NCBI GenBank assembly: GCA_022510615.1
Contig: JAFLTC010000003.1
Location: forward strand, 62,001-126,000
Reading direction: 5' to 3'
DNA: 64,000 bases
Origin: Lachnospiraceae bacterium
GTDB taxonomy: Bacteria > Bacillota > Clostridia > Lachnospirales > Lachnospiraceae
The position numbers and the translations under genes are program-made. The notes beneath the pieces are model-generated. The model was not told the DNA's origin. It worked only from the letters and a program-made list of their open reading frames with translations, and did not search any database. Position 1 is the first letter of the stretch, and every line of letters begins with the position of its first letter. Positions 25,853-61,731 of this stretch are shown in pieces.

Positions 25853-27061
25853 TTAGAGGTTTCTTGCCAGAATCTGGCTGTTTTTAATAAAATCTTCCAC
25901 CGTCTGAAAACCCAGTCTCTGAATCAAATCCAGAACATAGGGATTTTCCCCCGGTGTCCGGTAGGAAGCCTGCTCTGCATATTCCTCCACAAGCTCTGTG
26001 GCCTCCTCTGTTTCTATATTCTTTTTCGGACCGCCCACACAGCCCCCGGAACACGCCATGCCCTCAAAGAAATTCCCCTCTATACGCCCCTCTAAAATAT
26101 TTTGGAGCATCTGTTTGCAGTCCGCCGTACCGCAGGCACACACAGACCATAGTTCCCTCTTTTTATCAATACTTTTTACGCACTCGCTGACGGCACGGCT
26201 GACACCACCGCTTCTGGCATACATTCTCCCCGCCGCCGCCGAATGTTCATTTTCATCGGACTCCATTTCCTCCCAATTCACAGAAAGGACGTCAAATATA
26301 TCCTGCAACTCTTGAAAGGTCAGGACACAGTCAATGGCACCTTCTAAATCCGGCTCCCTGATTTCTGCCTTTTTCGCCATACAGGGACCGACAAAAATGG
26401 TGCGGCTGCCCTCATGGAGTTCCTTTACAATTCTTCCGCAGGCAATCATCGGGGATACAGATGCCGGCAGGTGTCCCGCTATTTTTTGAAAGTCCTTTCG
26501 TATCAGGGAAATCCAGATGGGGCAACAGCAACTGGTAAGCTGGAATCCTTCTTCTTTTTCCATGTTAGTGGAAAACTCCAATGCTTCTTTTAAAGTGAGA
26601 ATGTCGGCAAATGCCGCCACCTCTATCATACCGGCAAAGCCCATTCCCTTCAGGGCACTTCGGATTTTCCCCGGTGTCACTTCCTTTCCAAACTGTCCGA
26701 TATAGGCAGGTGCCATCAGGGCATATACCGGTTCTTCCGAATTTTTTAAAATGTCCACTGCCTTTATGGTATCGTGGCTGAATGTGATATTTTTATTTTC
26801 ACAGGATTCTATGCACTGAGCACAACCAACGCAGTTGTCCGGGTTCATTACCACCTTTCCCTCTTTTATCTCCAATGCCCGGAACATACAGGCTGTCACG
26901 CATTTGGCATCCTGACAGTCACAGGGCTCCTCCTTCCACACTAAGGGATGGTTTTCCGGATGTAAAAGGCAGTCCAGCTTTTTTCGCTCTGCGCCCTCTA
27001 TCATTTCCTCTTCCTCTAATTTATTTCTCAACACTCGTCTGTATAACTCGTCAAATGTCAT
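25853..27061 (-). CDS. Divergent [FeFe] hydrogenase-like protein (group B/C-like)
   Basis: 402 residues. Cysteine-rich N-terminus (CDC...CVTAC, about 47-58) and a ferredoxin-type site CVGCAQCIESC (77-87), then an H-cluster-like domain: TSCCCPIW (176-183) where the catalytic type has TSCCPGW, GPCMAKKAE (225-233), and EGMACSGGCVGGP near 340-352. The cysteines needed to hold the H-cluster are present, but the surroundings differ from HydA. It resembles the poorly characterised group B or the sensory group C hydrogenases; no PAS or regulatory domain is seen. ATG at 27061 has GGAGGG upstream. It may consume or sense H2 made by HydABC. Confidence 0.75.
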   Translation of the reverse strand: MTFDELYRRVLRNKLEEEEMIEGAERKKLDCLLHPENHPLVWKEEPCDCQDAKCVTACMFRALEIKEGKVVMNPDNCVGCAQCIESCENKNITFSHDTIKAVDILKNSEEPVYALMAPAYIGQFGKEVTPGKIRSALKGMGFAGMIEVAAFADILTLKEALEFSTNMEKEEGFQLTSCCCPIWISLIRKDFQKIAGHLPASVSPMIACGRIVKELHEGSRTIFVGPCMAKKAEIREPDLEGAIDCVLTFQELQDIFDVLSVNWEEMESDENEHSAAAGRMYARSGGVSRAVSECVKSIDKKRELWSVCACGTADCKQMLQNILEGRIEGNFFEGMACSGGCVGGPKKNIETEEATELVEEYAEQASYRTPGENPYVLDLIQRLGFQTVEDFIKNSQILARNL

Positions 27062-27125: not shown

Positions 27126-28859
27126 TTAGCTCCACTGTGCTTCAAAGAGCTTTTTATAAAAACCACCCTGTTCTAATAATTCCTCGTGACTTCCCTGCTC
27201 TACAATTTTCCCATCCCGCATGACAAGAATGACATCTGCCTCCCGAATGGTAGAAAGTCTATGTGCCACAATAAAACTCGTGCGTCCCTGCATCATCCTG
27301 ACAAATGCTTCTTGGATCTTAAGCTCCGTTCTTGTATCAATGGAGGAGGTGGCCTCATCCAGTATGAGCATCGGTGGCAGACAGAGCATCACTCTGGCAA
27401 TGCAAAGCAGCTGCTTTTGTCCGGCAGAAAGATTTCCTCCGTCCTCACCGATGATTGTATCGTAGCCCTCCGGCATACGTTTGATAAAGCTATGGGCGTG
27501 ACTTGCCTTCGCCGCCGCAATAATTTCTCCCTCATCCGCTTCCGGATATCCCATGGCAATATTTTCCCGTATTGTTCCCTTCTTCAGCCAGGTCTCCTGC
27601 AAAACCATCCCATAATTATTCCGAAGACTCTCTCTTGTTATTTTCCGGATATCCCGTTTCGACACCCGAATTGTACCGCTATCTACATCATAAAACCGCA
27701 TAAGTAGATTGATAAGAGTTGTTTTTCCGCAGCCGGTAGGTCCCACAATGGCAATTCGCTGCCCCGGCTCTACCTGAAGATGGAAATCTTCAATCAGCTT
27801 ACGGTCCGGCTCATAGGAAAAATAGACATCCTCTATCTCTACCGTTCCATCTGCTTTTTCCAGTGTCATGGCATCCGCCGGCTCCGGTGTCTCTGCCGCT
27901 TCTTCTATCAGCTCCAACACCCGTCCGGCACAGGCAATGGCATTTTGGAGCTCGGTCACAACGCCGGATATTTCATTAAATGGCTTTGTATACTGATTGG
28001 CATAGCTTAAAAAGCTTGCGAGCATTCCTACGGTAATGCCCCCCTGTATGGCATAGAAAGCCCCAAAAATACCTACACTGGCATAGACAAGACTATTGAC
28101 AAAACGGGTGGCAGGATTCGTAATCGAGGAGAAAAAGATACCCCGCAGAGAATATTTTCTCAGTCTTTCATTGATTTCATCAAAGGTTTCCAATGCCTCT
28201 TTTTCGTGCCCGAAAGCCTGTACTACCTTCTGGTTCCTAATCATTTCCTCAATGAGAGCCGTCTGCTCTCCCCTTGCCTCCGACTGTAACCGGAACATTT
28301 CATAAGTACGTCTGGCAATAAAGCTTGCCACAAAAAGAGAAACCGGGGTAACCACTACCACTACAATAGCAATCGGTATGCTGACACTCAGCATAAATCC
28401 CAATGTCCCCAGTATTGTAACGAGACCGGTAAAGAGCTGGGTAAAGCCCAGCAAAAGGCCATCGGCAAACTGGTCCACATCGGCAATAACCCGGCTGACT
28501 ACCTCCCCGTAGGAATGGCTGTCAATATAGCTCAGTGGAAGCTTTTGTATCTTTTCAAAGGCATCCTCTCTGATATCCCGCACAACGCCATAGGTAATTT
28601 TATTGTTACACACATTCATAATCCACTGGGCCACTATTGTCAGGGCTATGGAGATGGCGATTTTTTTACAAAGATGAAACACAGCATTATAATCTACCTG
28701 TTTCGGTGCTATGATATAATCAATGGCATGTCCCGTCAAAATCGGTATATACAGGGTAAGCGCCACCGATACGACTGCCAGCAGCAGCGAAGAAAACAGA
28801 TAGAGACCGTAGCGTCTGATATAGGGCAGTATCTTCTGAATCGTTTCCTTCTGGTTCAT
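27126..28859 (-). CDS. ABC exporter half-transporter (MdlB/YheH-like), catalytically canonical half
   Basis: 577 residues: six-helix type I exporter domain (about 15-315) fused to an ATPase with Walker A GPTGCGKTT, signature NLSAGQKQL (alanine in place of the usual glycine), Walker B MLILDEATS and switch histidine in AHRLST. The true start is probably the ATG at 28859, just beyond the upstream stop, with GGGGG nine bases upstream; the frame extends further but into the previous gene. It pairs with the product of 28861-30588 as a heterodimer like YheH/YheI. Substrate unknown; last gene of the attenuator-led operon. Confidence 0.9.
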   Translation of the reverse strand: MNQKETIQKILPYIRRYGLYLFSSLLLAVVSVALTLYIPILTGHAIDYIIAPKQVDYNAVFHLCKKIAISIALTIVAQWIMNVCNNKITYGVVRDIREDAFEKIQKLPLSYIDSHSYGEVVSRVIADVDQFADGLLLGFTQLFTGLVTILGTLGFMLSVSIPIAIVVVVVTPVSLFVASFIARRTYEMFRLQSEARGEQTALIEEMIRNQKVVQAFGHEKEALETFDEINERLRKYSLRGIFFSSITNPATRFVNSLVYASVGIFGAFYAIQGGITVGMLASFLSYANQYTKPFNEISGVVTELQNAIACAGRVLELIEEAAETPEPADAMTLEKADGTVEIEDVYFSYEPDRKLIEDFHLQVEPGQRIAIVGPTGCGKTTLINLLMRFYDVDSGTIRVSKRDIRKITRESLRNNYGMVLQETWLKKGTIRENIAMGYPEADEGEIIAAAKASHAHSFIKRMPEGYDTIIGEDGGNLSAGQKQLLCIARVMLCLPPMLILDEATSSIDTRTELKIQEAFVRMMQGRTSFIVAHRLSTIREADVILVMRDGKIVEQGSHEELLEQGGFYKKLFEAQWS

Positions 28860-28860
28860 A

Positions 28861-30588
28861 TCAGCGCGCCCCCTTTCCGTACTGGGATTCATAAATCTCC
28901 CGGTAAACCTCACAGCTGTCTATGAGTTTATCGTGGGTGCCAAGTCCGACAATATGTCCATCCTCCAGCACGACAATCCTGTCCGCATTTCGCACCGATG
29001 CTGCCCGCTGGGATACGATAAATATGGTCATACCCTTTAATTCTTCTCGAATGGCCTTTCGTAACGCCGCATCCGTGGCATAATCTAATGCCGAGACACT
29101 GTCATCCATAATGAGAATATCCGGACGTCTCACAAGAGCGCGGGCAATGGAAAGGCGCTGTTTTTGTCCGCCGGAAAAATTCCTTCCCTCCTGCTCTACT
29201 TCTTCTAAAAGACCATTTTTTTTGCCCCGCACAATTTCCTCTGCCTGGGCAATACGAAGTGCCTGCCACAGCTCCTCCTCGGTGGCATCTTCTTTTCCCC
29301 ATAAGAGGTTTGAGCGGATTGTCCCCTGAAATAAAACCGGCTTCTGGAGAACAATTCCCACCCTTTCCCTCAACTTTTTGAGGGGATATTCTTTTACTTC
29401 TACCCCTTCTATTTTCAAATGTCCGGATGTAATATCATAAAATCTCGGAATCAAATGTACAAAAGATGTTTTCCCGGAACCGGTTCCACCGATTACCCCT
29501 ATGGTTTCCCCCCGTTTTACCGATAAATCAATATCTGTCAGGGCTTCTTCACGGCTTCCCGGATATAGTAATCCCACATGGGAAAAAGACAGAATTTCCT
29601 CTCCTTCCTTTTCCGGCTCTACGGTATGCTCTGCCTCCAAAAGCCCGGGCTTTCGTTCCAACACTTCCTGAATCCGGTTTCCACAGGCAATGGCCTTATT
29701 GACAGTAATAATGAGATTGGCAAGCTTTACTAGCTCTACAAGAATCTGAGACATATAAGAGACCAGTGCCACAACCTCGCCCTGAGTAATTCTGCCGGCA
29801 TCCACCTGCTTTGCACCACAGACAATCAGAGCGATAACGGCTCCGTTAATAATGAGAAAAGTAACCGGATTTGTCGATGCCGCAATCCTTCCCACAAGCA
29901 GTTGTAACCGGTTTAACTCCTGATTTTCCTTCGTAAACTGTTCGGTTTCCTCCTGCTGCTTATGAAAGGCCCTGAGCACTCTGGCGCCGGCAAGATTTTC
30001 CCTCGTCCTTCCCAGAATCCGGTCAAGAGATGACTGGACTTCTTTGTATAAGGGGATACTGATTTTCATAACCCCGAATATCACCAGCGCCAAAAGAGGA
30101 ATCGCCGTCACAAATATGAGGGCAGCCTTTGTATCAATGGTAAATGCCATAATCATGGCCCCCAATACAATAAACGGAGAACGCATCAACAAACGCAGCA
30201 CCAGGTTAACCCCCGACTGAACCTGATTGACATCGTTTGTCATTCTCGTAATCATCGTGGAAGTTCCCATCATATCCATATCGCCAAAGGATAAAGACTG
30301 TATATGATTAAATAAATCATGTTTTAACTTTGCGGCAAATCCGACTGCCGCTTTTGCCGCAAAATACTGAGCTGTCAGAGATGCCACCAGTCCTATCGTA
30401 GCCAAAAGAACAAGGATAACTCCCATTCTTCCGATATAACCAAAATCCCCCCCGGCTATTCCCTTATCAATAATAGCTGCCATCACCAGAGGCACAAACA
30501 GCTCAAAGGAGGCTTCCAGCAGCTTAAACAGAGGAGCCAGAATACTTTCTTTCCGATAGGCTTTTAAAAATCGCAGTAATTTCCTCAT
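28861..30588 (-). CDS. ABC exporter half-transporter (YheI-like), degenerate ATP site
   Basis: 575 residues: exporter membrane domain (about 15-300) and an ATPase with Walker A GGTGSGKTS and signature NFSGGQKQR. The catalytic glutamate after Walker B is replaced (IMDDSVS instead of ILDEAT) and the switch histidine is glutamine (VSQRAAS). Such a degenerate site is typical of one half of asymmetric heterodimeric exporters. Its partner, encoded at 27126-28859, has the normal residues. ATG at 30588 follows GGAGAG; ten bases separate it from the flippase gene. Confidence 0.92.
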   Translation of the reverse strand: MRKLLRFLKAYRKESILAPLFKLLEASFELFVPLVMAAIIDKGIAGGDFGYIGRMGVILVLLATIGLVASLTAQYFAAKAAVGFAAKLKHDLFNHIQSLSFGDMDMMGTSTMITRMTNDVNQVQSGVNLVLRLLMRSPFIVLGAMIMAFTIDTKAALIFVTAIPLLALVIFGVMKISIPLYKEVQSSLDRILGRTRENLAGARVLRAFHKQQEETEQFTKENQELNRLQLLVGRIAASTNPVTFLIINGAVIALIVCGAKQVDAGRITQGEVVALVSYMSQILVELVKLANLIITVNKAIACGNRIQEVLERKPGLLEAEHTVEPEKEGEEILSFSHVGLLYPGSREEALTDIDLSVKRGETIGVIGGTGSGKTSFVHLIPRFYDITSGHLKIEGVEVKEYPLKKLRERVGIVLQKPVLFQGTIRSNLLWGKEDATEEELWQALRIAQAEEIVRGKKNGLLEEVEQEGRNFSGGQKQRLSIARALVRRPDILIMDDSVSALDYATDAALRKAIREELKGMTIFIVSQRAASVRNADRIVVLEDGHIVGLGTHDKLIDSCEVYREIYESQYGKGAR

Positions 30589-30598
30589 GGTTCTCTCC

Positions 30599-32053
30599 TT
30601 ATTTCTTAATCTTGGCCAGATTATCGGTCAGTATATGTTTCACATAGACAAATGCCTTTATTTTCAGTATATGGCTGAAAAGCAGATACACGACAATTCC
30701 TGTGATGACCTGTATTCCAAGGACCGGAATGGTACCAAGGGGAAGCATACCGGCAAAGTACACAACAACACCCATGAAAGCAGCCAGAAAAATGGCCGGA
30801 AGCAAATCCGCTAATTGCTCTTTATAGGTGTATCCTAAATATTTCCGGTTCGGAGTGGAATTAACCAATGCAGCAAAGAAGGTAACTACCATTCCGGTCC
30901 AGGCAATCCACATAACACCCTGCCACATAACCGCTAGAAGAGACAGAATGCCAAAACCTTTTTTTACAATTTCCATAATCAGCATGGTACGCCCCTTCCC
31001 TAGCGCCTTCACTGCCTGAATGTTAGCCGTCTGCACCGGCTCCAGGGCATACTGGATACAGGCAATCTGTAAAAACGGCACACAGGGCAGCCACCGGTCG
31101 GAAAAAATCAGCCTGACCACCGGCTCTGCCACTACGACCATTCCAATCATTAAGGGCCACATAATATAGGAACCTATCTGTATGGACAGACGAACCATTT
31201 TCTTTAAGCCCTCTTTATCCTCCTGCTTTGTCGTCATGGCAGGGAACAAAACAGAACCGATGGAGGAATTAATATTTGTCACAATTACATTGGGAAGTCT
31301 CTGTCCCTGATTATAGTACGCTAAATCCTCACCGGTATACAGCTTGCCGATTACCAGCCCCCGTATTTGCTGATAGGCGGTATGAATCAGCTCCGACATG
31401 AGCATTTTCCACCCAAAACTAAACAATTCCTTCATTCTTTCTAAGGAAAATTGAAAAAGGGGACGCCATTTAACCGTTACCCACAAAACCAGCGTATCAA
31501 GGGCAGAATTAAACAGATACTGTGCCACCAGAGCCCATGCCCCAAAGCCATAATACGCCATGGCAATTCCCACTACGGCAGAACCTATGGTACCAATCAG
31601 TGTCGAAAAGAAAAACCGCTTAAAGAGCATATTTTTCTGCACATATGCCTGCTGCACGGAATTGACACCCGCTAACGGTAACTTTAATGCCATAACCCGG
31701 AGAATCGGTATCAGAATCGGCTGTTTGTAAAAGGAAGCCACGAAAGGTGCACAAAAAAAGACAAGGGCATATAATGCCCATGACATCGTAACACTAAAAT
31801 AAAAAACAGAAGAAAAGTCCAGTCTGTCAGCATCTTTTTTCTGAATCAGCGACTGTCCAAAGCCACTGACAACAAAGACATTGGCAATTTCGATAAATAT
31901 CGTAATCATTGCCACAACGCCGTAATCTTTCGGCAAAAGCAGCCTTGCCAGTATCATGGACACAATAAAAGATACTGCCTGGGCGCCGATGCGCTCACCG
32001 AATTTCCATACTAATCCCGACAGAACTTTTTTCTGCAATCCCTCTTCTTTCAC
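30599..32053 (-). CDS. Polysaccharide flippase (MOP superfamily, Wzx-like)
   Basis: 484 residues with about 12-14 hydrophobic segments and the N-terminal GLVWKFGERIGAQAVSFIVS pattern of lipopolysaccharide/teichuronic-type flippases, which move lipid-linked glycans across the membrane. The start is GTG at 32053 with GGAGG five bases upstream; the frame is open 12 codons further without a better site. It follows the CDP-glycerol glycerophosphotransferase gene, so the cargo may be a glycerol-phosphate-containing glycan. Confidence 0.88.
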   Translation of the reverse strand: MKEEGLQKKVLSGLVWKFGERIGAQAVSFIVSMILARLLLPKDYGVVAMITIFIEIANVFVVSGFGQSLIQKKDADRLDFSSVFYFSVTMSWALYALVFFCAPFVASFYKQPILIPILRVMALKLPLAGVNSVQQAYVQKNMLFKRFFFSTLIGTIGSAVVGIAMAYYGFGAWALVAQYLFNSALDTLVLWVTVKWRPLFQFSLERMKELFSFGWKMLMSELIHTAYQQIRGLVIGKLYTGEDLAYYNQGQRLPNVIVTNINSSIGSVLFPAMTTKQEDKEGLKKMVRLSIQIGSYIMWPLMIGMVVVAEPVVRLIFSDRWLPCVPFLQIACIQYALEPVQTANIQAVKALGKGRTMLIMEIVKKGFGILSLLAVMWQGVMWIAWTGMVVTFFAALVNSTPNRKYLGYTYKEQLADLLPAIFLAAFMGVVVYFAGMLPLGTIPVLGIQVITGIVVYLLFSHILKIKAFVYVKHILTDNLAKIKK

Positions 32054-32104
32054 TCTTTCCTCCAGACCTGCGGACAACGGCCCACACACAAAGGGGAATG
32101 ACGG

Positions 32105-33265
32105 TCAAGCCTTCCCCTTGTCAAACTGATATGTTTCTTTTAAATATCGGTATAACTTCTCTGCGGAAGTACCATTCTGTACACTGTGGTAGCGGTTTCT
32201 CATCTCCATCAAGGTTTCTTTGTTCGAATTTTTCCCCTCTGCCACCTGGTCGATAAAAGCCATCACTTCCTCAGAGGACTCCATAAACTGCCCCTTTATA
32301 TTTTCCTTTAAATCCGTAAACGGACAGTCATAATACCGGAAATATTCTTCTCTGTCCTCTATCGTAAGACCAATTTGCTTCCCTGTCAATAAAAAATCAT
32401 AGTAAACGGAAGAATAATCGGTTATGAGAGCATTTGCCGCTGCCAGCATTTCATACAGGGTAATCCCCTCCCTCTCAAGAAACGCATCGTCTGCCAGACG
32501 GATATATTCCAGCTTTTCTCTGGAAAACAGGGATAACTCCTGTACCGGATGTGGGCGGAAGTATAAAACAAGATTTTTTTCTTTCAGCCGCTTTTCCAAC
32601 TCCATCAGCTGCTCCCTATTCATAATCTCCGGCATTCCATAAGGATATTGATTTTCCATTCCGTATTCCGGATGAAGTCTGTGTTGGCGATAGGTCGGCA
32701 TCCAGAGAATGTAATCTCCCAGATGATTCCTCTCCGCTTCCTTTTTTACCAGCACATCATTTCTCGGATAGCCAAGAGGAAGGAGGACTTCTTTTTTTAT
32801 ACCGACCTTTTCCGTAAAAATATCATACCAGAAGGGGCTTGTGATAAGATAGCCGTCACACTCCCCTATTTTTTCCTTTGTATGATAATCTCTTGTAATT
32901 TTAATGAGCATTCCATGCCCCAGATGTATTCGGACCTGTCCCTTTCTTCTTTTATGAAGATAGGTGTTCCCATCCAGAATATAGCGGCAGCGATACAGGG
33001 CAAGAAGCCTCTTTACATGTTCCCTTATACCCCGGGGCTCCAGATAAAAAATCTCCACCTGCTCCGGCAGCTCATGTACCGCCTGTTCTCTGCTGTGCAG
33101 TGCCCAGTAAATCCGGTGCCGTTTATTCACTCCGACAGACAGCATATACTGATACACTGCCAATGCATTGTCTGAAAAATCCGGATGGCTTTCCAATATG
33201 ATGTCCTCTCGCATAGGAATGAGCCGAAAAAACCATGTCACTATTTTCTTCACCCAATTTCCCAT
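32105..33265 (-). CDS. CDP-glycerol glycerophosphotransferase family protein (TagB/TagF-like)
   Basis: 386 residues of the TagB/TagF-type superfamily, which transfers glycerol phosphate (or ribitol phosphate) from a CDP-activated donor to build wall teichoic acid and capsule polymers at the inner membrane face. Recognisable are HLGHGMLIK, the YFRPHPVQE strand and TDYSSVYYDFLLTGK. It lacks the N-terminal amphipathic extension of long polymerases, so it may be a primase-type or single-step enzyme. GGAGG precedes the ATG at 33265. Twenty-two bases separate it from the upstream ABC gene. Confidence 0.88.
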   Translation of the reverse strand: MGNWVKKIVTWFFRLIPMREDIILESHPDFSDNALAVYQYMLSVGVNKRHRIYWALHSREQAVHELPEQVEIFYLEPRGIREHVKRLLALYRCRYILDGNTYLHKRRKGQVRIHLGHGMLIKITRDYHTKEKIGECDGYLITSPFWYDIFTEKVGIKKEVLLPLGYPRNDVLVKKEAERNHLGDYILWMPTYRQHRLHPEYGMENQYPYGMPEIMNREQLMELEKRLKEKNLVLYFRPHPVQELSLFSREKLEYIRLADDAFLEREGITLYEMLAAANALITDYSSVYYDFLLTGKQIGLTIEDREEYFRYYDCPFTDLKENIKGQFMESSEEVMAFIDQVAEGKNSNKETLMEMRNRYHSVQNGTSAEKLYRYLKETYQFDKGKA

Positions 33266-33287: not shown

Positions 33288-35477
33288 TCAGCCTGCCTCC
33301 GTTCCCTGCATTTCCAGCTGGGCCTTTACAAGACGGTAATAAATTCCTTCTTTTTGAAGCAGTTCATCATGGGAGCCGATCTCCGCTATCTGATGCCCGT
33401 CAATGACAATGAGACGGTCCGCATTTTGCAGCGTTGACAGTCTATGAGCGATGGCAAAGGTAGTACGTCCGTTTGTCAGGCGCTCCAGTGCTTTCTGTAT
33501 CATAAATTCACTTTCGGTATCCAGACTGGCCGTAGCCTCATCTAATATCAAAAGCCTTGGCTCATTTAGTATAGCGCGGGCAATGGCAATACGCTGACGC
33601 TCTCCTCCGGAGAGATTGTAGCCCTTTTCTCCCACATAGGTGTTGTACCCATCCGGGGTTTTGGAAATAAAGTCATGGGCATTTGCCATTTTTGCCGCCC
33701 GGACAACCTCCTCATAGGTAGCTTCCGGTCTGGAAAAACGGATGTTATCTAAAATGGTACCGGAAAACAAAAAGGTTTCCTGCAACACCACCCCAATCTG
33801 GGAGTGAAACGTATCGGAACGAATTTCCTTTATATCGTGTCCGTCCACCATAAGGCTTCCGTCGTCCACCTCATACAGTCGCATAATCAGGTTAATGAGA
33901 GTGGATTTTCCCGTACCGGAAGCCCCTACAATTCCTATCATTTCCCCGGGGCGTATCGTTAGGTTCAGATCCTCTAACACCGGCTGGTAGGACTTATAGC
34001 CGAAAGTGGCATGGCGAAATTCGATTGCTCCCTTCACCTGCAAATCCACCGGCCTTTCCACATCCTCAATAAAAGGCTCCTGTGCCAGCACATCATTAAT
34101 CCTTTCAATACTGCTGATTAGATTCATCAAATCCCTTGGCATCGATGTCATCCAATTCAGATACTGGTATAGCAGCTGGGTATAGGTAATAAACTGAAGC
34201 AGCTCTCCGGTAGTCATACTACCGCCAAAAACATCCATGCCTCCAAAATAAATCACTAAAAATACACCGGCACCCATAATCAGACCGGTAAACGGATTAA
34301 ATATTGCCCAAAATACCTCATTTCTCGTCTGAACCCGGCAAAATTCCTCTGACAGTACATTGAATTTTTTCTTCTCTGCCTCTTCCTTTCCATAGGATTT
34401 TACTACCCTCATGCCGGAGATGACATCCTGTAAATTACTGTTTACATCATCATCCTTTTTCCATTGCAGGTGAAAGCGGCGATGAATATTTTTCCGAAAG
34501 GCGTAGGTAAAAATTACTGCCAGTGGGACAAAAATAAGGCTTAAGAACGCCAGCTTTACATTCAGGGCAAACATAAACACAATATCACAGACAAAGATGA
34601 AGCAGACCGTAAACATATTACAGAAGGTACGCTCCATAAATTCCCGTATTCTCCTCGTATCATAGACAATCCGGTTCATTAATTCCCCGGGGCGCCTATC
34701 GTTAATAAAGCTCAGGGACAAAATCTGAATTTTGGCAAAGAGCTCCTGTCTTAAATCTTTGGCAATAATAGCTCCCAATACCGTACAGTAATAGCTTTTT
34801 AAAACGTTGATGACAACAATTCCCACACTCAAGGCAAACATAATGCCAAGACAGGTAAATGCCACACCGATGCCGCCGTTTCCCTTCGTCAACACTTTAT
34901 CCACCAGATGCTTCTGAACCTCCGGATTTAAAAGTGTCACCACCGCGGCAAGAATCATCAGCACGATAATGCCGGAAAACTTTTTCTTATAGGGTGCTGA
35001 CATCTTCAAAAAGCTACGCCAGAATCCCCCCTCTTTCGAGCAGTGCGGACAATACCTCGTACCCGGAATTGCCCTGCCGCACTGAGGACATATTTTCTCG
35101 TATTCCGTGCTGACTACCTCCTCGGTACGTCCGGAAATCAAAATATTAATACCTCTGGCAATATAGGCGTACCGTGACAGATGCTTCGCCGAATAATGAA
35201 CAAGATACCGGGTAATTCCCCGATGCGTCAGCACCAAAATGCCGCCGCCGATTTTCGGCTCTGCCTTTGCCATCCGGCAGTCCGATATGTTTAGCTTTTC
35301 GACTACCTGTACTCCCGACACTAAAAAGAGGTGTCCGGTACTGACGACAAAGTAGGAATCTGCCAGCCAGGAACCATCCTCTGCAATATCGTAGGGAACG
35401 GCATAGTAAATCCTTTCGCCCTTCTCCAATGTAAGACAGGCAGTTACCGCTTCCGGCAAATCATATTTTAATATCAT
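33288..35477 (-). CDS. ABC exporter half-transporter with N-terminal zinc ribbon, DUF1854-associated
   Basis: 729 residues. Residues 1-125 form a beta-rich domain that looks PH-like; a zinc ribbon follows (C130-C133 and C143-C146 in CPQCG...CPHC); then six membrane helices (about 160-450) and an ATPase with Walker A GASGTGKST, NLSGGERQR, LLILDEATAS and AHRLST, all canonical. An extra cytosolic N-terminal domain of about 150 residues is not found in ordinary exporters. Relatives flanking a DUF1854 gene occur in clusters annotated, as I recall, as cyanophycin-metabolism-associated. No cyanophycin synthetase gene is present here. Partner: the product of 36056-38392. Confidence 0.88.
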   Translation of the reverse strand: MILKYDLPEAVTACLTLEKGERIYYAVPYDIAEDGSWLADSYFVVSTGHLFLVSGVQVVEKLNISDCRMAKAEPKIGGGILVLTHRGITRYLVHYSAKHLSRYAYIARGINILISGRTEEVVSTEYEKICPQCGRAIPGTRYCPHCSKEGGFWRSFLKMSAPYKKKFSGIIVLMILAAVVTLLNPEVQKHLVDKVLTKGNGGIGVAFTCLGIMFALSVGIVVINVLKSYYCTVLGAIIAKDLRQELFAKIQILSLSFINDRRPGELMNRIVYDTRRIREFMERTFCNMFTVCFIFVCDIVFMFALNVKLAFLSLIFVPLAVIFTYAFRKNIHRRFHLQWKKDDDVNSNLQDVISGMRVVKSYGKEEAEKKKFNVLSEEFCRVQTRNEVFWAIFNPFTGLIMGAGVFLVIYFGGMDVFGGSMTTGELLQFITYTQLLYQYLNWMTSMPRDLMNLISSIERINDVLAQEPFIEDVERPVDLQVKGAIEFRHATFGYKSYQPVLEDLNLTIRPGEMIGIVGASGTGKSTLINLIMRLYEVDDGSLMVDGHDIKEIRSDTFHSQIGVVLQETFLFSGTILDNIRFSRPEATYEEVVRAAKMANAHDFISKTPDGYNTYVGEKGYNLSGGERQRIAIARAILNEPRLLILDEATASLDTESEFMIQKALERLTNGRTTFAIAHRLSTLQNADRLIVIDGHQIAEIGSHDELLQKEGIYYRLVKAQLEMQGTEAG

Positions 35478-35498: not shown

Positions 35499-36041
35499 TT
35501 ACAAAAACAAATCCAGCTTCCGCTGTTCTTTCTGACTAAGCTGGAACACATCCGCTATCTCAAAACGGTTTTCATCCAAATCCGTAATTAACAGACGACT
35601 TTCCGACAACCGTACCACCGCATTGCTTCCCATATTTATGGTAAAACGACATTCACCCCGGTCCGTCAGAACATGGAAATACGCATAGCCGTATTCATCC
35701 TTGATATCCACAATTTTTTTGATAACCGGTGTAAAGTAGTGAAGATTCAGCTGCTCTTCCAGCATTTTCCGGGTTTCCTTATTCACCTGCTTCATATCGG
35801 CAATTACACCGATTTCCTTTGACCGCTCCTCCACCGTACGGATGGAGATAAATTTATCCGGCTCCGTAAAAGGAAACAGACGGATGACCTGTACCCGGTC
35901 CCAGATCTTGCCATCCATCTCCAGACGGACGAATCCACCCTCGGTCCGGGAAAACACGGCATTATCCTTTGTGATATAGCAAAGTGCCGTCATTTCCTCC
36001 GTTTCCCTTTCCATCTGTTCCATCGTACTATTTTCTTCCAT
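35499..36041 (-). CDS. DUF1854 domain protein
   Basis: 180-residue soluble acidic protein whose middle and end (VIRLFPFTEPDKFISI, YFTPVIKKIVDIKDEYGYAYF, RLLITDLDENRFEI) match DUF1854. No enzymatic motif is visible. Its place between two zinc-ribbon exporter genes, with gaps of only 21 and 14 bases, argues that it is a dedicated cytosolic partner, for example delivering substrate or gating the exporter. The N-terminal domains of both exporters show a similar beta-rich layout, so a structural relation is possible. Confidence 0.85.
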   Translation of the reverse strand: MEENSTMEQMERETEEMTALCYITKDNAVFSRTEGGFVRLEMDGKIWDRVQVIRLFPFTEPDKFISIRTVEERSKEIGVIADMKQVNKETRKMLEEQLNLHYFTPVIKKIVDIKDEYGYAYFHVLTDRGECRFTINMGSNAVVRLSESRLLITDLDENRFEIADVFQLSQKEQRKLDLFL

Positions 36042-36055
36042 ACTTTCCTTCCTTT

Positions 36056-38392
36056 CTATGCCAGCGTATTCTTCAATGCCAACGACTTCGTCTGAAGCTC
36101 CATTAATTTAAAGTAGATTCCATGAAGCTCTTCCAATTCATGATGAGTTCCTTCCTCTACAATCTTTCCGTTATCAATCACCACAAGGCGGTCCGCATCC
36201 CGAAGCGTGGACAATCGGTGGGCAATGGACAGGGTCGTCCGTCCCTTGACAAGATAATTCAGGGATTTCTGAATCGCCTTTTCCGTTTCCGTATCCACAC
36301 TTGCCGTCGCCTCATCTAAAATCAATATTTTCGGATTGGCAAGCACCGCTCTGGCAATGGAAATACGCTGCTTTTCACCGCCGGATAAATCCTTTCCCGA
36401 TGCCCCGATAACCGTATCATAGCCATCCGGCATATTGGAAATAAATTCGTGGGCACTGGCAAGTATCGCCGCCTGGATAATATCCCCTCTGGTGGCATCC
36501 GGGTTGGCATAGGCAATATTTTCCGCCACTGTCCCCATAAAAATGTAGGTATCCTGGGAAACCATGGCCACATTTCTCCTCAAATCATGGAAGGCAAGAT
36601 TTTTTACATTTTCACCATCCAGTAAAATGGTTCCCTCATTGACATCGTACAACCGGGAAATCAGATTGACAAGGGTCGTCTTTCCGGCTCCCGAACGTCC
36701 GACAATGCCCAACATTTCCCCTTCCCGTACATGGAGGCTGATATCCTTTAACACCGGATTGTTTACATCATAGCCAAAGGTCACATGGTCTAAGGTGATT
36801 TCTCCCCTTGGGGATGGCATCGACACCGGATTTTGGATTTCCTGAATGTCCGGTATAGCATCCATAATTTCAAACATTCTCTGAGCAGAGTTAATACTGT
36901 CGGACCACATATGGAATACCCATGAGAAAAAGTTCATCGGTCCGTTTAACTGCCCCACATATCCCACAAAGGTAATCAGTACACCTAACTCCACACTGTG
37001 GCTGTTCAGCAGCAGAATAACCCCCAGTATCCATACCCAGATATTGGATACCTCCTGTACAAGGTTGTATAAAATAGTAAATCGATTGTTGTATTTGACA
37101 ATACGCACCTCGGCATCCCGAAGCCTGTCATTCGGCGGCTCAAACCGTACACTTTCCGGTTCCTGCTGTCCAAAGGCTTTCACTACTCTGGCGCCCGTCA
37201 GATTGTCATTGACACGACTGTTTACCGAACGCTCTGCCCGGTGACGCCTTCCAAACAGACTCCACAATTTCGGCTTCAGCTTCACACTCATAACGACTAA
37301 CAGCGGGAGCAGAATACATGCCACCAGTGCCATCTGCCAGTTCAAGCGGAACATAACCACAAAGGAAGAAAGTATCGTAAAGGCATGCACAAATATGTAC
37401 GGAAAGCCATCTAAGAAAAATCCGGTAACACGCTCAGCATCACTTAACACCCTGGTCATCAAACTTCCGGTCTGCTTGCTGGTAAAAAACTGAATAGATA
37501 GCTGTCCCATGGAGGAAAAAACATCCTGCTTCATATCCCGGATTGTAGCAGCTACTACCTGTGCCATCAGACTCCCCTGTAACATTGCCACACCCTGCTG
37601 CACGAGTTTTGACAAAAGCATCGCCATGACAAGCAAAAACAACGCCAGCATATAGTGCCCGGCAATGCCAAACTGTGCCAAAAAACCGTCGTCCTTTTCC
37701 AATACATAATCGTAGAGAACCGTACCACTTAAATATGGCCATGCGAGATTTATTCCTGCCGCTGCCAAATAGCAGATGAACAGTATAATAAATCGAATTC
37801 GGTATTTCCAGAAATATCCGAGGGCCCTCAGAAAGATGGAGCGCTTATTCATACACTTCGGACATATTTTCCGCTTCGGATCCGGATACATCGTTCCGCA
37901 AACCGGACAGTACTCTGCCTTTTCTTCCTGAATATCCGCAGATGCCTCTACATTTTCTGCCTCCTCCGGATATTTCTTTAGCTTTTTATAGCTTTTTAAA
38001 AACAGATTCATCTGCTCCAGATAGAGATTTGTCAACGCCGCAATACGGGTCGGCTCCTCTTTCCGGTATACCATGACAACATTGGTTGCTACCTGCCTGA
38101 TAATCTTCATATGGGCTGTTTCCTCTAAAGGAATGAGCTGACAGGTATAGGTAAGGGTGTCTTCCCTGTAGTCCATATCCTTTGTTTTCGTTCCCCGGAA
38201 GTACCGTACCCTGTTGCCGATGGGCTCACTGGTTACAACGCCGAGAATCTCCTTTGTCAGAAATAAATACCCGCTTATGTATTCGCTCTCAAAGGATAAA
38301 TCTGTCGGACAGACATCCAATATATCGTTTTTGCCAATTCCCTGTGGTTTTAATAGTTCTAATACCCGGGAAGGTAGCTGATTTTTTTTCAT
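36056..38392 (-). CDS. ABC exporter half-transporter with N-terminal zinc ribbon, first gene of attenuator-led operon
   Basis: 778 residues: N-terminal beta-rich domain (1-140), a zinc ribbon with C162-C165 and C177-C180 (CPVCG...CPKC), six membrane helices (about 190-480) and a canonical ATPase (GRSGAGKTT, DLSGGEKQR, ILILDEATAS, AHRLST). It probably pairs with the 33288-35477 product, both halves being catalytically complete. The ATG at 38392 has GGAGGAAAAA directly upstream; a TTG four codons earlier overlaps that site. Expression appears controlled by the leader and terminator at 38643-38840. Confidence 0.88.
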   Translation of the reverse strand: MKKNQLPSRVLELLKPQGIGKNDILDVCPTDLSFESEYISGYLFLTKEILGVVTSEPIGNRVRYFRGTKTKDMDYREDTLTYTCQLIPLEETAHMKIIRQVATNVVMVYRKEEPTRIAALTNLYLEQMNLFLKSYKKLKKYPEEAENVEASADIQEEKAEYCPVCGTMYPDPKRKICPKCMNKRSIFLRALGYFWKYRIRFIILFICYLAAAGINLAWPYLSGTVLYDYVLEKDDGFLAQFGIAGHYMLALFLLVMAMLLSKLVQQGVAMLQGSLMAQVVAATIRDMKQDVFSSMGQLSIQFFTSKQTGSLMTRVLSDAERVTGFFLDGFPYIFVHAFTILSSFVVMFRLNWQMALVACILLPLLVVMSVKLKPKLWSLFGRRHRAERSVNSRVNDNLTGARVVKAFGQQEPESVRFEPPNDRLRDAEVRIVKYNNRFTILYNLVQEVSNIWVWILGVILLLNSHSVELGVLITFVGYVGQLNGPMNFFSWVFHMWSDSINSAQRMFEIMDAIPDIQEIQNPVSMPSPRGEITLDHVTFGYDVNNPVLKDISLHVREGEMLGIVGRSGAGKTTLVNLISRLYDVNEGTILLDGENVKNLAFHDLRRNVAMVSQDTYIFMGTVAENIAYANPDATRGDIIQAAILASAHEFISNMPDGYDTVIGASGKDLSGGEKQRISIARAVLANPKILILDEATASVDTETEKAIQKSLNYLVKGRTTLSIAHRLSTLRDADRLVVIDNGKIVEEGTHHELEELHGIYFKLMELQTKSLALKNTLA

Positions 38393-38446
38393 TTTTTCCT
38401 CCAATCTTCACAACGCTTACGCATTCTTCGCGCTAAGCCGCTCGCG

Positions 38447-38551
38447 CATTCTTCGCGCTTCGCGCTCATCATGTGGGGCTTCGCCCTCCTTGTTATTCAG
38501 CCGAGCCGCCACATTCTTCGCGCTTCGCGCTCATCATGTGGGGCTTCGCCC
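38447..38551. repeat. 40-bp direct repeats made of GAA-triloop mini-hairpins
   Basis: A 40-base sequence at 38447-38486 recurs identically at 38512-38551 (period 65); a partial copy of its start lies at about 38422. Read on the minus strand each copy holds two tiny hairpins, GGGGCGAAGCCCC and GCGCGAAGCGC, with GAA triloops. The block is far more GC-rich than its surroundings and lies in the probable 5' leader of the ABC operon. Confidence 0.85.
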
Positions 38552-38640
38552 CATGCCGAAAAACGAGAGCACATTTTCACTTGTGCGAGCACAAGAAAAT
38601 GTGCTCTCGTTTTTCGGCGCGCGGCTCGGCTGAATAACAA
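38490..38640. repeat. 151-bp nested inverted-repeat element, MITE-like
   Basis: Perfect 20-base terminal arms (38490-38509 and 38621-38640, beginning TTGTTATTCAGCC on the left). Inside, perfect 24-base arms (38555-38578 and 38595-38618), and inside those CTTGTGC (38580-38586) facing GCACAAG (38589-38595). The left half also contains the second copy of the 40-base direct repeat. No target-site duplication or transposase is visible. Confidence 0.85.
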
Positions 38641-38642
38641 AA

Positions 38643-38668
38643 GGGTGCTTCTGGTTTCAGAAGCACCC
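38643..38668 (-). terminator. Intrinsic terminator of the leader (attenuator stem)
   Basis: Perfect 11-bp stem (GGGTGCTTCTG at 38643-38653 with CAGAAGCACCC at 38658-38668), four-base loop, followed on the minus strand by TTTTGTTATT. It lies 28 bases beyond the stop of the leader ORF and 250 bases before the first ABC gene. Confidence 0.9.
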
Positions 38669-38696
38669 TGAATTCACAATATGAGAAAAGACTGCC

Positions 38697-38777
38697 TTAT
38701 GAGAATAAGGTCGTATCGTGAACAATATGGTAACTTCTGAATTTTGTGTTATGAGTATTTAATGTTTTCATTGTCAT
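38697..38777 (-). CDS. 26-residue leader peptide
   Basis: Short ORF beginning ATG ACA ATG, residues MTMKTLNTHNTK at the start and HIVHDTTLFS at the end. Its Shine-Dalgarno AAAGGCGGTGA (one mismatch to consensus) is five bases upstream, within 30 bases of a consensus promoter. Middle codons (Phe-Arg-Ser, 13-15) are the ones that can pair with the terminator. It is not rich in any one amino acid, so classic amino-acid attenuation is unlikely; drug- or peptide-dependent ribosome stalling is more plausible. It could also be a stand-alone short secreted or toxic peptide, but it lacks a hydrophobic core. Confidence 0.6.
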   Translation of the reverse strand: MTMKTLNTHNTKFRSYHIVHDTTLFS

Positions 38778-38811
38778 ATTGTTCACCGCCTTTCTGTTTT
38801 AATCTTTTGCC

Positions 38812-38840
38812 ATTATAACCTAACTATTATTTCTTGTCAA
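38812..38840 (-). promoter_or_regulatory. Consensus sigma-A promoter of the leader / ABC operon
   Basis: On the minus strand: TTGACA (38835-38840), exactly 17 bases, TATAAT (38812-38817). Both boxes are perfect, making it the strongest promoter seen in the window. Confidence 0.92.
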
Positions 38841-38907: not shown

Positions 38908-39738
38908 TTAAGGCCAGATTGACCTTACTACCTTTTCCACGGATTTATTCAGCTTCGTATACTGTTTCTTCGCCGCTTTTGTTACACCTTCATACTGTAC
39001 GTCTGTGGGATAGAGAACAACATAATAATAACCGTTCCATTTACCCACCAGTTCATAGGCCGGTATCTCCTGATAGGAATCATCCTTATACCTTGCAATA
39101 GAAAAAAGCCAGCCTAATTTTTTCTGTTTATAACATTTTTTAGCGTAAAATGCCACATAAGAACCATGCTTCTTTTTCTTGCTCTGTTTTACAATATAGT
39201 TACCTTTCCAATTATCCGGTAATTTTAGGGAAAAATCAGATACACGAAATACTCCTTTTCCTTTCCGTGCATTTTTTACCGGTTGAAGAGAGGCTGCTGC
39301 CGTCAGTGAACCATGATTCAACTTATCATACTGCTTTTTCGCTGCCTTCGTTACGCCTTCTGTCTGCACATCTGTAGGGAAAAGGGCAACATAGTATAAG
39401 CCATTCCATTTACCCACCAGCTCATAGGACGGCATATCGGTATAAGAGTCATCCTTGTACCGCATAATCGTAAACAGCCATCCCTCTTTCTTCTGCTTAT
39501 AACACTTTTTAGAGTAAAACGCCACATAGGAACCATGCTTTTTTCCCTTACTGCATTTCATTTTATAGTTCCCCTTCCAGTCACGGGGCAGTTTTAAGGT
39601 AAAATCAGAAGATGCCTTTACTGTAATTGTTTTATTCGCAGTTGCTGCTGATACTGTTTTTTTTGTCTGAACGCTGCTATACCCTGCCACAAGGGACAGG
39701 GTAATAACAACCGCCAAAAAAGAGCGGATTATTCGCAT
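38908..39738 (-). CDS. Secreted protein with two tandem copies of an uncharacterised ~90-residue domain
   Basis: 276 residues. A signal-peptide-like start (residues 1-20) precedes two repeats of about 95 residues (roughly 50-145 and 165-262). Both contain WKGNY, KKHGSYVAFY(S/A)KKCYKQKK, RYKDDSY, YELVGKWNG and GVTKAAKKQY. The repeats are highly alike, so the duplication is probably recent, and very lysine- and tyrosine-rich, suggesting binding to an acidic polymer. I do not recognise the domain. It follows the ECF-sigma operon genes and has AGGAGG before the ATG; it may be the last gene of that operon. Confidence 0.75.
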   Translation of the reverse strand: MRIIRSFLAVVITLSLVAGYSSVQTKKTVSAATANKTITVKASSDFTLKLPRDWKGNYKMKCSKGKKHGSYVAFYSKKCYKQKKEGWLFTIMRYKDDSYTDMPSYELVGKWNGLYYVALFPTDVQTEGVTKAAKKQYDKLNHGSLTAAASLQPVKNARKGKGVFRVSDFSLKLPDNWKGNYIVKQSKKKKHGSYVAFYAKKCYKQKKLGWLFSIARYKDDSYQEIPAYELVGKWNGYYYVVLYPTDVQYEGVTKAAKKQYTKLNKSVEKVVRSIWP

Positions 39739-58925: not shown

Positions 58926-61544
58926 CTAATCCTTATTAAAAAATTCCCTCATCTGTTCTTCGGCGCTCTTTACTCTCTCCTCTAACTCCCTGGCTGATAA
59001 CAGTCGGCAGCCGGCACCACGGATAATAATCTGCTCCAAGCCATCAGAGGTCGCCACAGTAATATCGTACCTCTTTCCGTTTTCGTGGGCAAATTTTTCT
59101 ATATACTGGTCTGCGGTTTCCGCCTCTTTCGTATATACTACATGAATGTTGTGATAATCTAAAATTTCCGTCCGATGGTTCTGGACCCGATAGGCATCAA
59201 ACACAAGGATCAGATGACATTTTTGAAACCCCTGATAATTGCACAAAATGTCCATGAGCCTCCCTCTCGCACCGTCAATATCCACCTTTGCCAGTTCCCG
59301 CAGTTCCTCCCATGCAAAAATAATATTATAGCCGTCTACTAAGAGATAGGGTTCCCCCTTTTCCACTTTCTTTCTCGGTTTCGACAGCCCCACAGAGGCA
59401 GTGGTCAGGGAGCGGAGCTTTTTCCCGGATATCCCCTTGTGGGAGATTGGAACACCTTTTTTATTGGCATGGGATGCCTGCTCTAAAATCCGATCAATTT
59501 CCTCCACATCAATAAAGTCCTCCACCGGAGATGACAGCCTCGTCTCCTCCGGTTCCATCTGCTCCTCTCTCCTCTCCTTTACGCATTCCACGTGGGCATA
59601 TCCTGGAACCTCCTCCCAGCTCACATAAAAACCGGAACCATGGGTACAGAAAACCGAGCCGGTAGGATTTTCTCCATCCTGCTCCGGCTGGTAACCGATA
59701 TTTTCTATTACCGCGGAAGCATTGTGACATGGATAATATCCCTGAAATGTACAGAAAATTCTTCCCTCCCCCTTCGTATACGCTGTTACCTCTGTCGGAT
59801 AATCCTGCATGGTCGCCACCGGGGCACGACCGGTAAGAACGGAAGTACCGTCTGCCCCCTGCTCCAGTTCAAAGGTGCCCGACATTTTCTCAATATCCGC
59901 CAGAGCACGTCCCACCATAGTTTCCGGAATTTCCAGCCGGAATTCATAATAGGGTTCCAAAAGTACCGATTCCGCCTGCATCAGTCCCTGTCTGACGGCC
60001 CGGTAAGTCGCCTGTCTAAAATCGCCGCCCTCCGTGTGCTTTAAATGGGCACGGCCGGCTATGAGAGTGATTTTTATATCGGTAAGGGCAGAGCCTGTCA
60101 ACACTCCCGGATGCTCCCTCTCTGCCAGATGAGTCATTATGAGTCTCTGCCAGTTCTTATCCAATATGTCCTCACTACAGTCCGCCGCAATCTGCACGCC
60201 GCTTCCCGGCTCTCCCGGTTCCATCCACAGATGAACTTCCGCATAATGGCGCAGGGGCTCAAAATGCCCGATTCCCTCCACGGAATTTTTTATACTTTCT
60301 TTGTAGACAATATTGCCCGTGCCAAATTCCACGCATACACCAAACCGCTTCTCAATCCGGCTTTTTAAAATTTCAATCTGAACCTCTCCCATAACCTTTG
60401 CCTGGATTTCCTGCAATTCTTCATTCCAGACAATATGAAGTTCCGGCTCCTCCTCCTCTAACTCCCTGAGCTTTGGCAAAATCACCGCCGGCTCACAACC
60501 CTCCGGCAGTTCGATGCGGTATGTCAGCACCGGCTCCAATACCGGCTTTTCCGACCTTTTTTCAAATCCAAGCCCCTCTCCCGGATAGGTACCTGTTAAT
60601 CCCGTCAGGGCGCAGACCATACCTGCCTCCGCCTCCGGTATCGCTTCAAAGCGGTCGCCGGAATAGAGTCTGATCTGTGTTATCTTTTCCCTCTCCCCGG
60701 TCTTTTCCACAGGCAGCTCCATCCGGTTTTTGATACAGCCACCGGTTACCTTTACATAGGTAAGCCGGGTCCCCTGATTATCTCTCGCTATTTTAAAAAC
60801 CTTCGCACCGAATTCTTCCGGGTAAACCGGTGCCTTCGCATACTTACTAAGTCCCCGAAAAAACTCCTCCACACCTTCCATTTTCAGTGCCGAGCCAAAA
60901 AAGCAGGGAAACAGTACCCTCTTTTTTATGAGAGAAATAATTTCCCCGGAATCCACTGTCCCGTTTTCCAAAAATTGTTCCAGCAGTTCCTCGTCACAGA
61001 GGGCAACGCTCTCATAAAATTCTTCCCCCTCCGGTCGGGAGAAATCTACTATATTACCGCCGAGACGTGCATTCAGTTCCTTTAATATTTTATTTTTATC
61101 CGTTCCCGGCTGGTCCATTTTATTGACAAATAAAAAAATGGGGATATAATATTTTTCCAGCAGACGCCAGAGAGTAACGGTGTGTCCCTGCACACCATCG
61201 GCACCGCTGATGACTAAAATTCCATAGTTAAGCACCGGAAGCGTCCGCTCCATCTCTGCGGAAAAATCCACATGTCCCGGTGTATCGAGAAGCGTTACCG
61301 TCGTATCCTCAAAAGAAAAGACAGCCTGCTTAGAAAATATCGTAATTCCCCTTGCTCTCTCTAATTCATCCGTATCCAGAAAAGCATCACCATTATCCAC
61401 TCTTCCCATTTTTTTCAGCTGCCCGGCCGTATACATCAGCCCCTCTGACAGCGTGGTCTTGCCCGCATCCACGTGGGCCAATATTCCGATGCTAACATGT
61501 TTTGAACTCTTTTTGCCTAATCTATTTTCAGACGTATCTTCCAT
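58926..61544 (-). CDS. TetM/EF-G-like ribosomal GTPase fused to a C-terminal Rae1/YacP-type NYN ribonuclease domain
   Basis: 872 residues. The N-terminal ~640 resemble ribosomal-protection GTPases (TetM/TetO) and EF-G: GTPase motifs AHVDAGKTT (about 20-28), DTPGH and NKMD, then domains II to V. A linker (about 640-730) leads to a C-terminal domain (733-872) of the NYN/YacP type: LLVDGYNIIFAWEEL, LVFDAYRV, ETADQYIEKF and ATSDGLEQ, the last matching the acidic active-site set. Rae1 (YacP) of Bacillus subtilis cuts mRNA in the ribosomal A site, and TetM binds near it, so the fusion could place a nuclease on the ribosome. ATG at 61544 follows AAAGGGG. Resistance to tetracycline is not implied. 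Confidence 0.85.
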   Translation of the reverse strand: MEDTSENRLGKKSSKHVSIGILAHVDAGKTTLSEGLMYTAGQLKKMGRVDNGDAFLDTDELERARGITIFSKQAVFSFEDTTVTLLDTPGHVDFSAEMERTLPVLNYGILVISGADGVQGHTVTLWRLLEKYYIPIFLFVNKMDQPGTDKNKILKELNARLGGNIVDFSRPEGEEFYESVALCDEELLEQFLENGTVDSGEIISLIKKRVLFPCFFGSALKMEGVEEFFRGLSKYAKAPVYPEEFGAKVFKIARDNQGTRLTYVKVTGGCIKNRMELPVEKTGEREKITQIRLYSGDRFEAIPEAEAGMVCALTGLTGTYPGEGLGFEKRSEKPVLEPVLTYRIELPEGCEPAVILPKLRELEEEEPELHIVWNEELQEIQAKVMGEVQIEILKSRIEKRFGVCVEFGTGNIVYKESIKNSVEGIGHFEPLRHYAEVHLWMEPGEPGSGVQIAADCSEDILDKNWQRLIMTHLAEREHPGVLTGSALTDIKITLIAGRAHLKHTEGGDFRQATYRAVRQGLMQAESVLLEPYYEFRLEIPETMVGRALADIEKMSGTFELEQGADGTSVLTGRAPVATMQDYPTEVTAYTKGEGRIFCTFQGYYPCHNASAVIENIGYQPEQDGENPTGSVFCTHGSGFYVSWEEVPGYAHVECVKERREEQMEPEETRLSSPVEDFIDVEEIDRILEQASHANKKGVPISHKGISGKKLRSLTTASVGLSKPRKKVEKGEPYLLVDGYNIIFAWEELRELAKVDIDGARGRLMDILCNYQGFQKCHLILVFDAYRVQNHRTEILDYHNIHVVYTKEAETADQYIEKFAHENGKRYDITVATSDGLEQIIIRGAGCRLLSARELEERVKSAEEQMREFFNKD

Positions 61545-61578
61545 CGAAAATACCCCTTTCTGTATCTTATAATGAATG

Positions 61579-61607
61579 ATTATAGCACAAAAAATGGTAT
61601 AAGTCGA
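61579..61607 (-). promoter_or_regulatory. Extended -10 promoter for the GTPase-nuclease gene
   Basis: On the minus strand TGC-TATAAT (TATAAT at 61579-61584), with a partial -35 TCGACT at 61602-61607, 17 bases away. It lies 35 bases before the ATG. Confidence 0.65.
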
Positions 61608-61731
61608 TAAATATAACCGTGCCATCCTACGTACTTAATATTTTTTGCAACATATTCTCCGGCTGATTCGTTTTGTGTATATACTGTACTAGTATGTACC
61701 ACCAAAATACTTTATAGGAAAGGAGTATTCT

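Follow-up and report, generated by a model that had tools for sequence, protein, structure and literature searches.

A leader with mutually exclusive RNA pairings precedes an ABC exporter operon in Lachnospiraceae and is probably a ribosome-controlled transcription attenuator

A 64,000-nucleotide stretch of a Lachnospiraceae bacterium genome (GCA_022510615.1, contig JAFLTC010000003.1, positions 62,001 to 126,000 of the forward strand), from here on referred to as the window, carries a leader in which a short open reading frame (ORF) with its own Shine-Dalgarno (SD) sequence is placed between a promoter and an intrinsic terminator, upstream of a set of ATP-binding cassette (ABC) exporter genes. 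Does this leader decide whether the genes behind it are transcribed, and if so, what would it respond to? We propose, with a probability of roughly 0.77, that it is a ribosome-controlled transcription attenuator of the exporter operon, similar to vmlR and bmrB, in which the SD sequence and start codon of the leader ORF themselves act as the anti-antiterminator. The leader is made up of the following parts, with SD and ORF read from the sequence.

38840-38812, minus strand: sigma-70 promoter, TTGACA-17-TATAAT, 12/12 match
38792-38783, minus strand: SD of the leader ORF, AAGGCGGTGA, near-consensus, within the region of the P1 5' strand described below
38777-38697, minus strand: leader ORF, 26 codons plus stop, MTMKTLNTHNTKFRSYHIVHDTTLFS
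38669-38642, minus strand: intrinsic terminator hairpin, 12 perfect pairs with a loop of 4, then a TTTTGTT tail

The initial annotation had placed the strongest promoter of the window before the leader, which is correct except for a tie: a second 12/12 match at 61123 (+), antisense within an 899-codon gene, is probably due to chance. The 26-codon ORF, the perfect terminator and the distance of 250 bases to the first ABC gene (ABC1, starting at 38392) were likewise all found where expected. The terminator lies 3' of the leader stop codon, the ORF ending at 38697. No separate strong promoter intervenes, no minus-strand match of at least 9/12 being listed between 38640 and 38392. Directly upstream of the leader promoter lies a gene (38908-39738, minus strand) whose 276-aa product matches neither Pfam nor NCBIfam.

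Three pairings compete within the leader RNA, namely P1, a two-part antiterminator (AT1 of 9 bp and AT2 of 10 bp, with a 3-bp step in between) and the terminator. All folding reported here is thermodynamic.

38775-38786, minus strand: P1 (anti-antiterminator) 5' strand, SD side plus start codon; perfect 12 bp with 38718-38729
38718-38729, minus strand: P1 3' strand, within the late codons of the ORF; 12-bp pairing that co-varies
38733-38741, minus strand: AT1 5' strand, within the ORF; from folding, partner 38656-38664
38656-38664, minus strand: AT1 3' strand, overlapping the terminator 5' arm; from folding
38714-38723, minus strand: AT2 5' strand, overlapping the P1 3' strand; from folding, partner 38672-38681
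38672-38681, minus strand: AT2 3' strand; from folding

Because AT2 shares the 3' strand of P1 and AT1 shares the 5' arm of the terminator, the antiterminator excludes both P1 and the terminator. P1 in turn hides the SD of the leader itself. For the RNA spanning 38805 to 38637 the folding z-score is -5.13, with 0/200 shuffles equally stable, and the P1 and antiterminator duplexes of the window were each matched by 0/200 shuffles of the ORF segment. Two pairings of the initial annotation, 38734-38741 with 38656-38663 and 38775-38786 with 38718-38729, are perfect over 8 and 12 bp, respectively. Its alternative partner for 38775-38786 at 38676-38684 survives in part: the region does match in sequence (38676-38687, 12 nt, 92%), the second antiterminator arm being, however, 38714-38723 with 38672-38681. 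By eye, pairing of 38676-38684 with the SD is found only in the window and in one related locus (L038).

Leaders of the same plan occur at related loci, referred to by L numbers. A search with ABC1 returned 193 loci, the best 80 of which were kept, and a promoter-ORF-terminator scan of 74 of these, together with reading of upstream sequence, revealed 22 further leaders, with ORFs of 25-41 codons across the family. They comprise short-type (L038, L039, L040, L054), long-type (L041-L045, L047, L051, L055, L056) and rumen-type leaders (L060, L061, L066-L069, L071, L077) and one further leader (L111). The scan candidates L079 and L110 had ORFs that did not fit and were dropped from the duplex and footprint analyses. 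In L041, L042, L043, L051 and L056 the leader is found about 4 kb upstream of ABC1 with other genes intervening, and the leader is therefore tied to the head of the gene set and not to one gene. Specifically, the L043 leader has its start codon at 2850 with ABC1 beginning at 6908, and the two ABC genes in between are distant from those of the window (25-33% over parts). The L043 leader is also located directly downstream of a class II aminoacyl-tRNA synthetase gene (1330-2718; tRNA-synt_2b and anticodon-binding domains).

Across this family the pairing is kept and the peptide is not. Among 15 representatives, cognate strands gave a lower mean duplex value than mismatched strands for both P1 (-21.8 vs -16.0) and the antiterminator (-25.9 vs -19.3), and 0/20000 permutations were as low for either; permutation only within three groups of five gave 95/20000 for P1 and 28/20000 for the antiterminator. 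Shuffles of the ORF segment reached the antiterminator in 0-12/200 cases in all 23 leaders and P1 in 0-4/200 cases in 19 of them, the terminators of L038, L044 and L055 having been set by hand before the duplex test. RNAalifold recovered P1 and the terminator from 14 leaders, with double-sided changes in 9/21 pairs, three of them in P1. MAFFT alignment displaces AT1 relative to P1 between subtypes. A consensus fold of the 8 rumen-type leaders, two of them visibly misaligned, contains extra helices outside the switch. By eye, the window has TTCAC/GTGAA for AT2 where L039 has TTCATG/CATGAA. The frame in which L039 and L040 read the AT1/P1 stretch differs from that of the window. Thus, of the conservation in related genomes that the initial annotation had named as a check, that of the pairing is borne out, whereas the leader peptide diverges. 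Its central proposal, a switch between terminator and antiterminator controlled by the ribosome, finds support in this conservation and co-variation and, as far as early codons go, in footprint folding.

The latter was carried out by sliding a ribosome footprint, covering -15 to +16 around the P-site codon, along the ORF and scoring a position as ON if the antiterminator is possible while P1 is blocked. In window RNA ending in the terminator loop, the fold is the antiterminator when the footprint sits on the start codon or on codon 5 or 8, and not when it sits on codon 14. ON positions fall at the first 2-5 codons in 22/23 leaders, and this early stretch is the sole one in 9/22 (the window, L040, L041, L047, L051, L055, L067, L069 and L111). 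In the growing window transcript, the best fold passes from P1 (3' ends 38723-38658) to the antiterminator (38657-38648) and back to P1, with P1 and the terminator coexisting from 38645 onwards.

These results suggest how the switch may work, provided that the leader ORF is translated, as we infer. With no ribosome at the leader start, the SD and start codon would pair with the late ORF codons as P1 once these are transcribed, P1 would prevent the antiterminator, and the terminator would stop RNA polymerase. During normal translation, the ribosome would lie over the 3' half of the ORF as the terminator arms are being transcribed, so that the terminator could again form. A ribosome held at about codons 1-5 would block P1 and leave the 3' half of the ORF free, upon which AT1 and AT2 would form and sequester the terminator 5' arm, allowing polymerase to proceed into ABC1, the DUF1854 gene, ABC2 and the later genes. 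The signal would most likely, judging by known systems, be an inhibitor of translation that stalls ribosomes on or close to start codons.

Comparable leaders have been described. In the vmlR leader of Bacillus subtilis, the upstream ORF (uORF) lies inside the anti-antiterminator hairpin, as it does here (PMC9226507). An antibiotic-stalled ribosome prevents that hairpin, the antiterminator forms and the terminator is lost, and several different uORF sequences are functional (PMC9226507). There, the minimal uORF, uORF(MIN), consists of 3 codons, with an SD described as single-stranded ahead of the hairpin, whereas here SD and start codon form the hairpin strand that pairs with late codons of a 25-41 codon ORF. 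Further, the vmlR product is an ABCF ATPase while the first gene here encodes an exporter with ABC_membrane and ABC_tran domains. The bmrB leader of the B. subtilis bmrBCD operon, which is induced by ribosome-targeting drugs, offers a precedent with the same logic as proposed here (PMC4191407). It differs in that its terminator is inside the leader ORF, whereas the present one is past the stop codon, and in that the exporter gene set here includes DUF1854 and several further genes. In Escherichia coli, drugs of several classes are sensed by the toiL uORF, in some cases through ribosomes that tetracycline or retapamulin hold at its start codon, with retapamulin acting as an inducer (PMC12121999); toiL occludes the topAI ribosome-binding site and involves Rho-dependent termination, in contrast to the intrinsic terminator found here. 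The positions at which tetracycline and retapamulin hold ribosomes on toiL (PMC12121999), and at which lincomycin acts on the three-codon vmlR uORF (PMC9226507), resemble the early ON stretch. The idea that an antibiotic induces the present leader is taken only by analogy from vmlR, bmrCD and toiL. In a further study, 205 ABC transporter genes are named as candidates for attenuation (PMC2965389). A literature search on leader, attenuator and bmrB found no description of this leader in open-licence papers without their supplements.

Within the genus of the window, ABC1 is found in 18/39 genomes, and a leader was seen in 14 of these 18 (G000, G108, G398, G406, G407, G410, G411, G417, G418, G422, G423, G425, G426 and G431), with leader and ABC1 on different contigs in G422. 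In the wider family, 32/397 sampled genomes encode ABC1 at E<=1e-180, new loci being scanned by an automatic detector only. A search with the window leader matched 24/397 family genomes at E<=0.01, strongly only G000 and G108; it scored 2 candidates per genome and can miss weak relatives. Reading 14 of the 23 other matching loci revealed no leader (L007-L009, L012-L015, L018, L019, L022, L023, L025, L027 and L029). An L061-type leader search matched 1/397 genomes, with no leader at that match (L175) nor at the G409 match (L174). Of 100 upstream regions 98 were usable, and the automatic detector called 16 of these, compared with 0 on the reverse strand and 0, 0, 1, 0 and 1 in five shuffles; it is not independent, its thresholds having been set at the weakest known leaders and 14/16 calls being already known. 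Its two new calls, L090 and L157, are doubtful and were left out of the leader set. The detector misses L038, L044 and L055, which have imperfect terminators, as well as leaders farther upstream, and a 1500-base flank was assumed for some loci.

Several observations weigh against the attenuator as proposed. In loop-stage RNA without a ribosome, the antiterminator is slightly favoured over P1 (-30.1 vs -28.2), and for the switch to be OFF with no ribosome present, P1 would thus have to form first; that this happens, and that timing gives OFF in normal translation, is what we infer in both cases. With a ribosome at the stop codon of the window leader, the antiterminator is again the best loop-stage fold. 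L077 has no ON position, and 13/22 leaders with early ON positions have others later in the ORF. In L067, L068, L069 and L071, 9-22/200 shuffles reach P1. The stretch read upstream of ABC1 in 4/18 genomes of the genus (G399, G408, G409, G433) contains no leader. Finally, a palindromic element between terminator and ABC1, described below, might lower read-through in the window.

The first residues of the leader peptide bear on the nature of the signal. The initial annotation had described the peptide as not rich in one amino acid, which is incorrect: threonine (Thr) makes up 6/26 residues and is enriched early in the family. At positions 2-7 of the 15 representatives, 21/90 residues are Thr compared with 14/360 in background N-termini (Fisher 6e-8), values that are inflated as the leaders are related and the counts not independent. 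The background consists of the N-termini of 60 ORFs of at least 200 codons in the same loci, some of which may not be genes. The same leader positions read in the other two frames contain Thr in 2/82 and 1/81 cases, and the remainder of the leaders in 36/367. Isoleucine (Ile) accounts for 22/90 residues at positions 2-7 vs 37/360 in the background, and alanine for only 1/90. Thr is found within residues 2-5 in 12/15 representatives and 16/23 leaders vs 9/60 background ORFs, and is absent from residues 2-7 in 3/15 representatives (L047, L061 and L111).

Two readings of the early Thr are open. It may, by analogy, serve as the penultimate residue for phenicol-type drugs, for which alanine is best and serine and Thr are less so (PMC8987054). 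Alternatively, a hungry Thr codon may sit in the A site, and the leader would then be an amino-acid-supply attenuator with the early Thr (and Ile) codons as sensor, in which a shortage of charged tRNA-Thr, through starvation or a threonyl-tRNA synthetase inhibitor, would stall the ribosome in the ON window. The early enrichment of both residues is as this explanation expects, and with the A site on a Thr codon at positions 2-5 the P site does fall in the ON window. Leaders of the thrL type carry regulatory codons for one amino acid, and their operon makes or takes up that amino acid. The operon found here, however, encodes export, DUF1854 and envelope-type functions and not Thr synthesis or uptake; considering also the three representatives without early Thr, the relatedness of the leaders and the uncertain background ORFs, this explanation appears unlikely. 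A related proposal, which we regard as rather doubtful, is that a conserved leader family in Lachnospiraceae gauges ribosome dwell on Thr-containing first codons. The SD would act as anti-antiterminator, coding selection would be confined to the first codons while the peptide's end could shift frame, and the exporter would respond to the supply of Thr-tRNA, such as when a natural inhibitor of threonyl-tRNA synthetase is present.

The leader could also yield a short RNA or peptide that acts elsewhere, its terminator merely ending a small gene and the operon being read at a constant low level. ORF and terminator do form a complete small transcription unit, yet P1 and the antiterminator co-vary whereas the peptide is not kept and in L039 and L040 shifts frame, and the leader accompanies the operon, two leader searches having matched 0/21 genus genomes without ABC1; we consider this very improbable. 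Least probable is a riboswitch, T-box or protein-bound attenuator independent of translation, since, even though such classes generally use terminator/antiterminator pairs as well, no Rfam family matches the leader at cut-off (the only match at E<=1 has an E-value of 0.31 and 17.2 bits vs a cut-off of 88) and the pairing involves the SD, the start codon and further codons of an ORF that is kept.

The ribosome-controlled attenuator would act on seven co-directional, closely spaced genes.

36056-38392, minus strand: ABC1, exporter half-transporter, 778 aa (Pfam ABC_membrane, ABC_tran)
35499-36041, minus strand: DUF1854 protein, 180 aa (Pfam)
33288-35477, minus strand: ABC2, exporter half-transporter, 729 aa (Pfam)
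32105-33265, minus strand: CDP-glycerol glycerophosphotransferase-like gene (Pfam)
30599-32089, minus strand: polysaccharide flippase-like gene (Pfam)
28861-30588, minus strand: ABC3 half-transporter (Pfam)
27126-28913, minus strand: ABC4 half-transporter (Pfam)

The seven-gene export operon of the initial annotation thus holds as to number and arrangement, with the qualification that it includes the DUF1854, glycerophosphotransferase and flippase genes and that only ABC1-DUF1854-ABC2 is common to L038, L043 and L061. L038 also shares two more genes, those for the glycerophosphotransferase (75% identical) and the flippase (88% identical), and in L043 different genes on the opposite strand are found beyond ABC2. 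ABC1 and ABC2 both contain Walker A, signature and Walker B motifs, and solved structures related to ABC1 by sequence include ABCB4, ABCB1, TM_0288 and Sav1866. In NCBIfam, ABC1 and the DUF1854 protein score best with cyanophycin-metabolism-associated families, neither reaching the respective cut-off, and no open-licence paper naming DUF1854 was found. ABC3 and ABC4 overlap by 53 bases, and a motif search found ABC3 to be without a standard Walker B and ABC4 without a standard signature motif. Heterodimeric exporters with one weak ATP site show such degenerate motifs. A FeFe-hydrogenase-like gene (Fe_hyd_lg_C; 25853-27061, minus strand) is located 64 bases downstream of ABC4 and may be part of the same transcript. 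At a distance of 20 kb from the leader, an 899-aa protein (58926-61625, minus strand) combines GTP_EFTU, EFG_III, EFG_IV and EFG_C domains with a C-terminal YacP-like NYN nuclease domain, and is read here as a ribosome-directed EF-G/NYN fusion; YacP we take to be the ribosome nuclease Rae1. No paper on Rae1 together with bmrX or bmrBCD was found in the literature search.

The region between terminator and ABC1 contains the palindromic element mentioned above.

38436-38626, minus strand: Clostridiales-1 RNA element (RF01699), in the read-through transcript; Rfam 49.8 bits vs a cut-off of 48

The surrounding 38436-38640 carries 20-nt perfect inverted repeats (38490-38509 and 38621-38640) and 40-nt direct repeats, a 31-nt inverted repeat (90%) lies between terminator and ABC1, and a 73% copy of the region is found elsewhere in the same genome. 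An RF01699 search of the organism's own genome gave one sub-threshold place and missed the copy in the window. In appearance the element is closer to a mobile repeat than to a fixed RNA gene. Two findings led to its rejection as a component of the switch, its position past the terminator and the lack of an Rfam match in the close relative L038. By eye, a similarly built palindromic element, with inverted ends but another sequence, occupies this position in L045 (~5620-5830), between the terminator of the attenuator and ABC1, with no Rfam match at cut-off. Open-licence literature on Clostridiales-1 RNA gave no account of this leader.

If the leader works as a ribosome-controlled attenuator, the ABC1-DUF1854-ABC2 exporter set of gut and rumen Lachnospiraceae would gain a testable signal, namely ribosomes held at the start region of the leader ORF, and the early Thr enrichment makes the type of inducer directly testable. 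A uORF whose own SD is a strand of the switch would represent a simple design that could be sought elsewhere.
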